The translations under genes and the position numbers were made by a program. A stretch of 64,000 nucleotides of DNA from Deltaproteobacteria bacterium (GTDB lineage: Bacteria; Desulfobacterota; B13-G15; RBG-16-54-18): positions 239,564 to 303,563 of the forward strand of contig JAFGNJ010000005.1 of assembly GCA_016927065.1 (NCBI GenBank), given 5' to 3'. The first letter of the stretch is position 1. Every line of letters starts with the position of its first letter. Below are positions 18,289 to 24,143 of the stretch, piece after piece. Under the pieces are notes generated by a model, which searched no databases, was not told the origin of the DNA, and saw only the letters and a program-made list of their open reading frames with translations.

Positions 18289-19161
18289 ATGGTTGGTATT
18301 CAAAAACTATTTTTTATAGCGCTCTTTGTTTTATCCGTCCTTAGCCTCATGGCTTGTGATAAGACCACCCCCCACAACGGACAGGAACTAGCAAGGATAA
18401 ACGGTCACGTAATCACTCTGGAGGAGTTTGAACAGGAGATGGAACGGCTTTCGGAATCTGCTAAGCTACAAATGATCTCCGAAGAGGGAAGAAGAAAATT
18501 TTTGCAAGAACTTATAAGTCAAGAACTCCTCTTGCAGGAGGCAAAAAAGAAGGGATTGCACGAGAACAAAGAGATACTGGCCAATGTAGCGATGTTCAAA
18601 AAGGGATTAATCATCAATGCCCTTGGAGAAGAACTCTGTTTAGGCAAGGATGAGGTGAGCGACGAAGAGGTGGAGGCTTATTATCGTTCGAACAAAAAGG
18701 AGTTTGTTCTGGAGCAGGTGTGGATTAGACATATACTGCTGAAGACGCTCGAAGAGGCCAAGGAGATTAAAAAACGGTTGCTTCGAGGCGAGGACTTTAT
18801 CACGTTGACAAAACAATACTCTATTTGGATGCCTACTAAGATGAAGGGGGGAGACCTGGGCTATATCAAGCGGGGTATGGTGCATAAATCATTTGAAGAG
18901 GCCGCCTTCGCCTTGAAAAAACAAGGAGATTTGAGCGATATCGTTAAAACGGAGTTTGGTTATAATATCATTCGTCTTGAAGACAAGATAGGTCCCCGAC
19001 AGCTCACGTTTCCCGAGGTGCAAGAAGAGATTAGAAACAATCTCAGGAAAAAAAAGAGGGAGAAAATTCTCACTGCCTATCTGCAAAACCTACGTGAAAA
19101 AGCTCAAATCCACATTTATGAGGCACTGCTTGCCGCTGAGGAGGAAGAAGAGGTTCCATGA
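18289..19161 (+). CDS. Parvulin-type peptidyl-prolyl isomerase, predicted lipoprotein
   Basis: Lipobox-like LSLMAC; SurA-N domain; RHILLKTLEEAKEIKKRLLRGEDF...GGDLGYIKRG rotamase motif. Confidence 0.85.
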   Translation: MVGIQKLFFIALFVLSVLSLMACDKTTPHNGQELARINGHVITLEEFEQEMERLSESAKLQMISEEGRRKFLQELISQELLLQEAKKKGLHENKEILANVAMFKKGLIINALGEELCLGKDEVSDEEVEAYYRSNKKEFVLEQVWIRHILLKTLEEAKEIKKRLLRGEDFITLTKQYSIWMPTKMKGGDLGYIKRGMVHKSFEEAAFALKKQGDLSDIVKTEFGYNIIRLEDKIGPRQLTFPEVQEEIRNNLRKKKREKILTAYLQNLREKAQIHIYEALLAAEEEEEVP

Positions 19162-20147
19162 GAGATAACCTCAGCTTCAGATATTGCATATCAAGCCTCA
19201 TGATCTTGGCCGTTGCTGTTCTGAACTCATGCACGAACAAGATGCCATCCCATATAGTAGCGGAGGTTAACGGCGATTCTATCACGGTAGAAGAATTCAC
19301 AGCGGAATTCTTTCCATTAATTAAAGGATACCACACCACACTCTCCCCGCAAGAAGAAAAGTCCCTCTCAAATTTGAAAGAGGCCTTCTTGGATCAGCTC
19401 ATTGAAAAGAAGCTTATCCTGAGTAATGCCCAAACAATGGGGATAACGGTGAGCGAAGAAGAGGTGGAGGATGCCTTCTCCTATATTAAAAAGACCTATC
19501 CTGAAGGTGGGTTTGATGAAGTCGTGCACGATGAAGACTCTCTCAGTCAGTGGAAAGAAAAATTATACCAGCGCCTTGTGATCGAAAAGGTTATCAGCCG
19601 GGTCTCTCAGATTACCGCCCCCATTGATGAGGATGTCTTGCGGAAGTACTACCAGGAACATCAATCGGAGTTTACGGTACCTGATCAAGTAAGGGTGCGA
19701 CAGATCGTAGTAAAAGAGCGCAAAGACGCGGAAAATATTCTGAGGATGCTCAAGCAGGGGAAATCTTTTGAAGATCTGGCACGACGACATTCTATCGGGC
19801 CTGAGGCAGAGCAGGGAGGTGACCTTGAGTTTTTCGGCCGTGGGGATATGCCGGAAGAGTTTGACGTGGTATTTTCTCTTAAAGAAGGAGAGTTGAGCGA
19901 TATCGTGCAGAGCCCTTATGGCTATCACATTTTTCAGGTCGTCTCCAGGCGAGGACAATCGGAACCGCAATTTGCTGAAGTCAAGGATCAGATTAAGAAG
20001 AAGATCGTCCGAGAGGAGGAAGAAAAGGCATTTCAAGTGTGGTTGAAACAGGCCAAGAAAAAGGCCCATATTAGAATAAATAGAGGGGCCCTTGAGGCAA
20101 TAGGACTTCCTGCTGCTCAACAGGAGGAAGTACAGAAGAATCCATAA
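19158..20147 (+). CDS. Parvulin-type peptidyl-prolyl isomerase, predicted lipoprotein
   Basis: Signal plus Cys (AVLNSC); VRQIVVKERKDAENILRMLKQGKSFEDLARRHSIGPEAEQGGDLEFFGRG. Confidence 0.87.
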   Translation: MRDNLSFRYCISSLMILAVAVLNSCTNKMPSHIVAEVNGDSITVEEFTAEFFPLIKGYHTTLSPQEEKSLSNLKEAFLDQLIEKKLILSNAQTMGITVSEEEVEDAFSYIKKTYPEGGFDEVVHDEDSLSQWKEKLYQRLVIEKVISRVSQITAPIDEDVLRKYYQEHQSEFTVPDQVRVRQIVVKERKDAENILRMLKQGKSFEDLARRHSIGPEAEQGGDLEFFGRGDMPEEFDVVFSLKEGELSDIVQSPYGYHIFQVVSRRGQSEPQFAEVKDQIKKKIVREEEEKAFQVWLKQAKKKAHIRINRGALEAIGLPAAQQEEVQKNP

Positions 20148-20162
20148 AGGAGGTGAATTTAG

Positions 20163-21131
20163 GTGATAAAAAGAATAAGCCTTGTAATTTTTATTTTTTT
20201 CTTGTTGATCCCCTTTCCTTCGTCAGCGAAGGTGTTCGATCGAGTAGTTGGAGTTGTGGATGGTGAGGTGATAACCCTCGCCGACCTTGATGAAGCAATG
20301 CCGCAGTATGGGATGGTAAACATCCTTGATGCAGGGAACCCTTTAGACAAGGAAATGAGGCTAAACCAGGCGCGCAAGGCAGTCCTGCAATCGTTAATTG
20401 AAGAAAAAATGTTACAAAAGACGGCTAATCGCCTTGGAATCAAGGTTGGTACCGAAGAAGCGGATAATGCTTTCGCAAAGATGAAGGAGGATGGGAAAAT
20501 AGACGACGCCCAAGCAGAAAAGGAACTCATTAGACAGGGATTTAGCGTAGAAGGGTATCGACATTTTCTCACGGTACAAATCAGACGAGCCCGGATCATT
20601 GAGTCCCTCATCAAGCCTAACATATCAATGGCCGAAGAAAAGCTACGGGAATATTATCAAGCTAACATAAATAAGTATCAATCCCCCGAGTTGAGGGTGA
20701 GCCAGATAGTGATTCAGGTCCCCCCTGAACCTCAAGCCAAAGATTGGGAGGCCGCCAAAAAAAAGATGGACATGGTGTTGGAAAATCTGAAGAAGGGGGC
20801 GACATTTGAAGAGATGGCTCGCCAATACTCGGATGACTCGACATCGGCCAGTTCGGGAGGAGATCTCGGCTTCTTCGCAAAAGGAGAGATAATGCCGTTA
20901 CTTGAGGCGGTGGTTTTCAATATGAACGTGGGAGAGATAAGTGAAACCCTTCAATCCGCTCAAGCACTCCATATCTTCAAGGTGACGGACAAGAGAGAAG
21001 GAACATTGTACTCCTTTGACGAAATCAAAGAGCGGGTCATGGCAGATTACTACCGAGAAGAGGTGACAAAACACTATATCAAGTGGCTGGATGATTTAAA
21101 GGCACGTTCAAACGTGGAGGTAAAGCTTTAG
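20163..21131 (+). CDS. surA: SurA-like periplasmic peptidyl-prolyl isomerase
   Basis: Signal peptide then VFDRVVGVVDGEVITLADLDEAMP; parvulin domain YSDDSTSASSGGDLGFFAKGE. Confidence 0.85.
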   Translation: MIKRISLVIFIFFLLIPFPSSAKVFDRVVGVVDGEVITLADLDEAMPQYGMVNILDAGNPLDKEMRLNQARKAVLQSLIEEKMLQKTANRLGIKVGTEEADNAFAKMKEDGKIDDAQAEKELIRQGFSVEGYRHFLTVQIRRARIIESLIKPNISMAEEKLREYYQANINKYQSPELRVSQIVIQVPPEPQAKDWEAAKKKMDMVLENLKKGATFEEMARQYSDDSTSASSGGDLGFFAKGEIMPLLEAVVFNMNVGEISETLQSAQALHIFKVTDKREGTLYSFDEIKERVMADYYREEVTKHYIKWLDDLKARSNVEVKL

Positions 21132-22197: not shown

Positions 22198-22716
22198 TCA
22201 CGGCTTCAAAAGATCCCACGTTGCTGGAGTTACAACCCCATTAGGCTGTAACCCATTGGCCCGCTTGAACTCAATGATAGCAATCCACGTCTCTTTATTC
22301 CAGACGCCGTCAACCGGCCCGTTATAATACCCCTTCACCTTTAATGCCCGTTGAATATCTATAAGAGGGACATCCACCTCTATCATGGAACATGCGCCAG
22401 CTGGAGGACACGTGGGGTTACAGTACGGTGCGCACGAGGGTGAACAGGTGGGACTGCAATTGGGTGCGCAGGGGTAACACGTGGGGCTACAGGAAGGGGT
22501 GCAAGAGGGCGTACACGTGGGGGTGCAGGTTGGGCTACACGCAGGGGCGCACAGATGACGAGGGGAACATCGCCACGCCACGTCAGTGCCGTTAGCGGCC
22601 TTGATCTCAGGGGGATCAAAGATACCCTTGATGCCAAACAACAATCCCATGTAGAGACCGGCGAGGTACTTCAACGAGTTCTTGATAAAACCCCTTCTGC
22701 TCTCTTTGCGAGCCAT
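22198..22716 (-). CDS. Tat-signal, Cys-rich (CxPx repeat) protein with a C-terminal peptidoglycan-binding domain; candidate modified substrate of the adjacent radical SAM enzyme
   Basis: MARKESRRGFIKNSLKYLAGLYMGLLFG (Tat motif SRRGFIK), CAPACSPTCTPTCTPSCTPSCSPTCYPCAPNCSPTCSPSCAPYCNPTC tract, then PG_binding_1-like IDIQRALKVKGYYNGPVDGVWNKETWIAIIEFKRANGLQPNGVVTPATWDLL. SD taaggaggtgaca ATG at 22716. Confidence 0.9.
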   Translation of the reverse strand: MARKESRRGFIKNSLKYLAGLYMGLLFGIKGIFDPPEIKAANGTDVAWRCSPRHLCAPACSPTCTPTCTPSCTPSCSPTCYPCAPNCSPTCSPSCAPYCNPTCPPAGACSMIEVDVPLIDIQRALKVKGYYNGPVDGVWNKETWIAIIEFKRANGLQPNGVVTPATWDLLKP

Positions 22717-22784
22717 TGTCACCTCCTTAGTTCTGTCTCTACACTATAAGTTTAGCGAATGATTACAAAAAAACAAGCACAATA

Positions 22785-24080
22785 TCACTTTTTTTGCCAC
22801 CGTCCACGATAGGGGTCATAGAGGCAACGGGGGGACTTGTCATAGAGGTTTCCCCTTTGGGCATAGGCCAGTGGGCGGCAATCATGGCAGGCGTATCGAT
22901 ACTCGCAATCCTGACATACCTCCACCTGGTCCTTGGTTAACCCCCAAAGCTCTTGCAACCTTTTTTTTTGCAGTGAATCCTTCAAGTTCTCCTCACAGAC
23001 ATTACCGACTATGAGGTCACGTGCGAATATACAGGGCATCACCTCTCCCGTTGCGGTGACGGCCACTTTCCCGGCCCAACAGCTATTGTATCGTTTATTG
23101 TAAAAAAAGGAGTGCCTGTCGGTCCAGAAATTGGCCGCCGTCATGTGGCCGGAAAACTCGCGGGGAAGATCGTGGGGTTGTATCTCCTGAGAACACCCTC
23201 TCCCCGTGGGTCTGACAGGGTCTGGCAACTTATACTCTACCCCCATTTCGTGAAGGAATTCCACCGTCGCGGAGAGATCATGCTGGTTTCGTTTCATGGC
23301 AATGACGGCCACCCGCACCGGAACATTGTTATCCTTAATAAGGGTAATGGCTTTTACTGTCTTGGCATGACTTCCCTGAACCCCTGTAATGCTATCGTGG
23401 GTTTTCGGATCGGCGGAATAGAGGGTAGTGGCGATATGCACGCCGTTATCCCTCAAAAAAGGGATACGTTTTTGGGTGAAGAGGGTAAGGTTAGAGAAGA
23501 TCTCAACAAAAGTGTATCCTGTGCTCCGGGCAAAGCCGACCAATGGAAAAAGGTCTTTTTGCAGGAGTGGTTCACCACCGATAAACTGGACCTGGGAGCA
23601 ACCGAGATCTCGTGCCTGTCGCAATATGAGCTTCCACCCTTCAGCATTCACCCTGTCAGGTCCGGATGAGGAGAGGCAGTCACCGTAGCAATGGATGCAC
23701 CTGAGATTGCAGGTGGAGGTCACCTCCAACCAGATAAACTCCAGGGTGGCCTCAGGAATAGCTTCCTGAGATACGTTTCGGGGCGGAAAAGGGGTATCGG
23801 AGCTCTCCACAATTCCCATATCGATCAATTGATCCACGAACGTCCGGCGCCGTTCCTTGAATATGTTATGCTGAATGGCGGCCACTACGTTGTGGGCAGA
23901 GCGGTTAAGAGAGTAAACCGTCCCTTCCGAAAGGTCATACAAGGCGCTTCTGGCCACACCCTGTATTAAGACGCATCCTTCCTTTAAACGAATATAGTGG
24001 AGACGTTTGCTCTTATCTCCTGAGGTCAGCCTTTGTTTGCCGTATGATTGTCTTGTGGACAATGATAAATCTCTTTCCAC
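22785..24080 (-). CDS. Radical SAM/SPASM domain protein, peptide-maturase-like
   Basis: STCNLRCIHCYGDC (CxxxCxxC), GGEPLLQKDL, C-terminal SPASM-type Cys set (SCWAGKVAVTATGEVMPC...CQDCEYRYACHDC...C), N-terminal domain (CVLIQGVARSALYDLSEGTVYSLN) resembling SPASM peptide maturases. Confidence 0.9.
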   Translation of the reverse strand: MERDLSLSTRQSYGKQRLTSGDKSKRLHYIRLKEGCVLIQGVARSALYDLSEGTVYSLNRSAHNVVAAIQHNIFKERRRTFVDQLIDMGIVESSDTPFPPRNVSQEAIPEATLEFIWLEVTSTCNLRCIHCYGDCLSSSGPDRVNAEGWKLILRQARDLGCSQVQFIGGEPLLQKDLFPLVGFARSTGYTFVEIFSNLTLFTQKRIPFLRDNGVHIATTLYSADPKTHDSITGVQGSHAKTVKAITLIKDNNVPVRVAVIAMKRNQHDLSATVEFLHEMGVEYKLPDPVRPTGRGCSQEIQPHDLPREFSGHMTAANFWTDRHSFFYNKRYNSCWAGKVAVTATGEVMPCIFARDLIVGNVCEENLKDSLQKKRLQELWGLTKDQVEVCQDCEYRYACHDCRPLAYAQRGNLYDKSPRCLYDPYRGRWQKK

Positions 24081-24143
24081 GACGTATTATACAGCCCCTC
24101 CATCTCCCCGGCAACTGCCGTACGAGGGTCTGTAGAAAGAGTG

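Follow-up and report, generated by a model that had tools for sequence, protein, structure and literature searches.

Two adjacent genes on the minus strand of the window (the whole stretch of 64,000 nucleotides that was analysed) probably form a RiPP-like maturation unit, at a rough probability of 0.6. In such a unit, the cysteines of a precursor protein would be modified in the cytoplasm, after which the protein would be exported by the Tat system and bound to the cell wall. The original prediction had described two consecutive minus-strand genes, a radical SAM enzyme followed by a Cys-rich protein, 68 bp apart between pdxA and mtaB, and the open reading frames confirm this arrangement in position and strand. 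The features of the locus are as follows.

22785 to 24080, minus strand: radical SAM/SPASM enzyme (P0002, 431 aa), with a putative RRE-like N-terminal segment at about residues 29-95, a radical SAM core at about 117-282 and a SPASM region at about 334-419.
22198 to 22716, minus strand: precursor protein and candidate substrate (P0001, 172 aa), made up of a Tat signal, a CxP(x) Cys tract and a PG_binding_1 domain.
22570 to 22716, minus strand: Tat signal region of the precursor (residues 1-49), with SRRGFIK, a hydrophobic stretch and a small-residue site near KAANG.
22390 to 22569, minus strand: Cys tract of the precursor (residues 50-109), with 15 Cys and 15 Pro in CxPxC/CxPC repeats.
22207 to 22362, minus strand: PG_binding_1 domain of the precursor (residues 119-170), 51.7 bits against a cut-off of 23.
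22717 to 22784, minus strand: intergenic region of 68 bp, with a strong Shine-Dalgarno sequence, AAGGAGG, just 5' of the precursor ATG.
24086 to 24114, minus strand: putative sigma70-like promoter, TTGCCG-17-TATAAT, upstream of the enzyme gene, a consensus match only.

The GGAGG of the precursor's Shine-Dalgarno sequence is kept in the orthologues, and the enzyme gene has a weak start with a ribosome-binding site poorer than the strong one of the precursor. This difference is what would be expected of a substrate and its catalyst. The TATAAT within 24086-24114 lies very near the annotated GTG of the enzyme gene, and the true start may be further in, for example at the TTG at 24062; the enzyme orthologue in a related genome, G010, likewise has a later start. 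Besides pdxA and mtaB, an mnmA/trmU-like gene is also nearby as read by eye, and none of these three neighbours looks, by eye, like an ATP-grasp gene. Additionally, two adjoining SurA/PpiC-like periplasmic foldase genes were read by eye upstream of pdxA (window positions 19158-21131), and this couple is retained also in the related genomes G114, G239 and G143.

By its domains and by the positions of its cysteines, the enzyme belongs to the radical SAM/SPASM class. The radical SAM motif CX3CX2C is formed by C124, C128 and C131, and all seven SPASM cysteines are present (C334, C350, C389, C392, C398, C401 and C419). Scores of 61.9 bits against Pfam Radical_SAM (cut-off 29.5), 33.7 bits against Pfam SPASM (cut-off 21.5) and 35.8 bits against the SPASM model TIGR04085 (cut-off 27) were obtained. 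The best solved relative in a PDB search is SkfB (76.5 bits, E 1.8e-20), a thioether-forming sactipeptide maturase (PMC8326336), and this similarity falls mostly within the common radical SAM core. For the SPASM region, the best family is TIGR04193 at 96.7 bits, the next family reaching 36.6. No PqqD/RRE match to the N-terminal segment was found by profile with Pfam, the family models or a thin-profile PqqD comparison. AlphaFold models of the enzyme (from a two-row alignment) and of the N-terminal segment were too poor for a structure search, with mean pLDDT of 40 and 62, respectively. A defence role was also considered and rejected, the enzyme having only a weak generic similarity to the viperin core (43.6-51.9 bits).

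The precursor carries a Tat motif at its N-terminus (...KESRRGFIK). Its tract of 60 residues holds 15 Cys separated by gaps of 5, 3, 3, 3, 3, 3, 3, 2, 3, 3, 3, 3, 3 and 5 residues, and the second residue of every gap is Pro. Within the 2.48-Mb genome, this gene is the only place where five Cys codons follow each other at a spacing of four codons, and the reversed pattern, used as a control, has no match; therefore, the tract is not a product of chance. SRRxFI is conserved in four precursor orthologues, whose tracts hold 15 to 20 Cys, keep to the CxP(x) rule and retain a CYPC...NPTCPP ending on the C-terminal side. With a twin-Arg signal in the protein and TatC in the genome, the precursor is a predicted Tat substrate. 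The Tat route that had been proposed for it is supported by the conservation of this signal and by the presence of TatC in all 6 of the genomes tested. Retention at the cell wall, proposed at the same time, would have a concrete basis in the C-terminal PG_binding_1 domain, which the original prediction had not named. The density of Cys in the tract would also fit metal binding, and Tat is a route for proteins that are folded and already carry their cofactors. It could thus be supposed that the enzyme installs or uses an Fe-S or other metal centre and that the tract, loaded with metal, serves as an electron conduit at the cell wall. Such a conduit is highly improbable, since we know of no SPASM enzyme that inserts clusters into client proteins, and the Pro-rich tract appears to hold no recognised cluster motif.

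The distribution of the pair was followed in eight genomes of the host family and in about 396 genomes of the phylum. The two genes are adjacent and in the same order in 4 of the 8 family genomes, each of a different genus, one of the four enzyme copies being cut by a contig end. The outer neighbours vary, with a transposase-like gene in G239 and TauE-like and DedA-like genes in G010 (read by eye), and the pair stays. A fifth family genome, G143, known from one draft assembly, carries a fossil of the pair at the orthologous site near pdxA (L025:6420-7000, G143:C36). There, a deletion of about 1.33 kb relative to G010 fuses the CLHCYG region of the enzyme to the middle of the PG domain of the precursor. 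Because this single deletion joins both broken genes, enzyme and precursor appear to have been lost together; an additional frameshift and stop codons make a mere joining error of the assembly less likely. Neither gene was found in the other 3 family genomes (G048, G084 and G169), and pdxA was not found there either. In the signal, the tract, the PG domain and the enzyme, dN is about 0.09-0.26 against dS of about 0.6-2.0, the larger dS values being near saturation; both genes are thus under purifying selection throughout.

Among the roughly 396 phylum genomes, no intact family precursor was found that lacked the enzyme, and no enzyme of the subfamily that lacked a Cys precursor; the widespread occurrence of one gene without the other, which the original prediction had named as an argument against itself, was thus not observed in this sample. 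The precursor matches outside the family that were inspected in the phylum search are ordinary PG_binding_1 proteins or reading frames without Cys repeats. A search of plasmids gave distant generic radical SAM matches only, and one scan of wider genome contigs gave two matches, a close homologue that seems to be identical with the G239 record and a distant enzyme from an archaeon.

A single clear relative outside the family was found by enzyme profile among the 396 phylum genomes, in G346, a member of another family (203 bits, the next match reaching 119). The G346 enzyme is 32% identical to the window enzyme across 405 aa, and just upstream of it lies the gene of a protein of 84 aa, which carries a Tat signal (ISRRKFVKK) and has eight Cys at an exact spacing of four residues. 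The tract of this protein has no Pro, and the protein has no PG domain. The G346 enzyme carries a C-terminal PqqD domain (41.5 bits), and an HprK-related protein (37.3 bits, under the cut-off) is encoded downstream. The locus can be described as a three-gene unit (L036:1897-4536, G346:C13) of a Tat CXXX precursor, a radical SAM/SPASM-PqqD enzyme and an HprK-related protein. Other distant enzyme matches, in G022, G212, G119, G061 and G262, lack a Cys-repeat neighbour within the stretch that was read and resemble other radical SAM families. As a separate observation, a Cys/Gly repeat protein with CxxxC spacing and no evident Tat signal adjoins an enzyme that is radical SAM-like but of a different type in G395:C1 (L048:183-2229).

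Given the housekeeping neighbours of the pair, the Cys protein could be a wall protein that stays unmodified and forms disulfides or binds metal, with the enzyme acting on something else and the adjacency being incidental. This is quite unlikely in view of the conserved adjacency, the joint loss in G143, the second divergent pair in another family and the lack of any related precursor without the enzyme among the 396 genomes. Chance co-location is likewise rejected, on the conserved pairing, the joint loss and the G346 pair. Adjacency in four genera, apparent joint loss in G143 and the independent, divergent pair of G346 also support the candidate functional enzyme/precursor pair of the original prediction, for which gene-pair conservation had been suggested as a check.

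Comparison of the window and G346 pairs bears on the residue that would be modified. Both have the same type of enzyme, a Tat signal and Cys at a period of four, and this shared set provides the best evidence for Cys as the target. A point against the maturation model preferred here is that no acceptor residue besides Cys is common to the two tracts. The precursor could instead be modified at other residues, by cyclophane formation, epimerisation or a C-C bond at Pro, Ser, Thr or Tyr, while its Cys form periplasmic disulfides or bind metal. Many such reactions are carried out by SPASM enzymes, for example the formation of cyclopropylglycine within a TVGG repeat (PMC9062424), and the window tract has conserved Pro and ends in a conserved CYPC ... 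PYCNPTC. Modification at residues other than Cys is nevertheless unlikely, since the G346 precursor has only the Cys spacing and the Tat signal in common with that of the window.

The Pro of the repeats also suggests a reaction like that of the anaerobic sulfatase maturase anSME, in which the CxPx Cys would be oxidised to formylglycine (or thioaldehyde), giving an exported, wall-bound poly-aldehyde protein. The CxPx unit is the sulfatase-maturation consensus, (C/S)xPxR, minus its Arg (PMC8746622). CTPS units occur within the tract. Moreover, anSME is also a SPASM enzyme. Against this reaction stand the missing Arg at the motif position, the lack of Pro in the G346 tract and the scores of the SPASM region, which reaches 18.7 bits with the sulfatase_rSAM model TIGR03942 (cut-off 349.45) compared to 96.7 with TIGR04193. 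TIGR03942 is also not among the top 25 families for the whole enzyme, and none of the PDB matches up to E 1 is named as an anSME structure. Formylglycine formation is therefore very unlikely.

For the maturation unit that is preferred here, the following course can be proposed. The SPASM radical SAM enzyme would bind the precursor in the cytoplasm, the presumed site of action, where its oxygen-sensitive clusters can work. It would modify many Cys of the CxP(x) tract, most likely by forming a thioether between the sulfur of Cys and a carbon of the backbone or of a side chain. Once modified, and perhaps made rigid and freed of its thiols, the protein would leave by Tat and be held in the periplasm on peptidoglycan through its C-terminal PG_binding_1 domain. 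The similarities to SkfB and TIGR04193 and the QhpD precedent described below speak for this course; the position of the SkfB similarity mostly in the common core, the negative PqqD/RRE comparison and the small number of intact family members (four) speak against it. The parts of this course differ in strength: the Cys protein is very probably the substrate of the enzyme, Cys is the modified residue with moderate confidence, and both a thioether as the bond formed and a structural or cell-wall role of the product are weakly suggested. It is also possible, although doubtful, that a single radical SAM enzyme turns the tract into an extended series of uniform Cys modifications that resist reduction (serial thioether staples or, with lower likelihood, formylglycines), and that the exported, peptidoglycan-bound protein functions as a structural or reactive element of the wall, built after translation, and not as a diffusible peptide.

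The radical SAM RiPPs characterised so far are mostly small peptides that are secreted. The candidate substrate described here is of full protein size and has a Tat signal, a cell-wall anchor and, among the orthologues, up to 20 candidate sites. If its Cys are modified, radical chemistry would be used for building a periplasmic or wall component, and a function would be suggested for two families of repeat targets, TIGR04117 and HxsA, whose products are to our knowledge uncharacterised.

Neither gene reached an equivalog cut-off of a named NCBIfam system, including grasp-with-spasm, Syntroph_Cxxx, HxsA, the SCIFF maturase, AlbA, SkfB and anSME, which agrees with the earlier statement that the pair could not be assigned to a named RiPP family. 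Among the open-access papers searched, none was found on CXXX repeats with radical SAM, grasp-with-spasm, or RiPPs combining Tat and SPASM. The closest SPASM region is that of the grasp-with-spasm maturases (TIGR04193), 60 bits ahead of the next family. However, the match spans only the C-terminal 115 residues or so of the window enzyme, the whole enzyme scores 103.4 bits (below the cut-off of 175), and the window locus has no recognised ATP-grasp partner. In addition, CX3CX2C is intact in the window enzyme, and TIGR04193 members are not known to carry this radical SAM Cys motif. SkfB is the best solved relative, but the sactipeptide maturases SkfB and AlbA act on short secreted peptides, and the window enzyme is far under both family cut-offs.

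A substrate of protein size is found in the QhpD-QhpC system, where the radical SAM enzyme QhpD forms Cys-to-Asp/Glu thioethers within an entire protein while this is still in the cytoplasm, ahead of its export to the periplasm (PMC7876137). It is a proven precedent for such cross-linking of a protein that is later exported. That system differs in its export by an ABC transporter, its need for the protease QhpE and the flavoprotein QhpG, and its lack of a repeat tract.

The repeat tract itself has two curated counterparts. Syntroph_Cxxx (TIGR04117) is likewise a CXXX repeat target of a radical SAM enzyme, and the G346 precursor aligns with it over both signal and repeats. Scores against this model (cut-off 50) are 23.9 bits for the G346 precursor and 12.7 bits for the window precursor, which differs in its CxP(x) units and its PG-binding domain; across the phylum nothing exceeded the cut-off, and G346 was the top match. 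HxsA (TIGR03979) resembles the window precursor in having a repeat tract followed by a peptidoglycan-binding domain and in being matured by radical SAM enzymes. The score of 37.7 bits (cut-off 121.65) matches the PG domain only, and the window differs in its Cys-Xaa-Pro repeats, its one radical SAM gene and the lack of recognised HxsB, HxsC or HxsD genes beside it. The pair had originally been put forward as a candidate new system. This wording was somewhat strong, as targets of the TIGR04117 and HxsA kinds are already curated. Radical SAM targets with Cys-x-x-x repeats and those with repeats and a peptidoglycan-binding domain have been curated separately, and the window pair joins both with Tat export.
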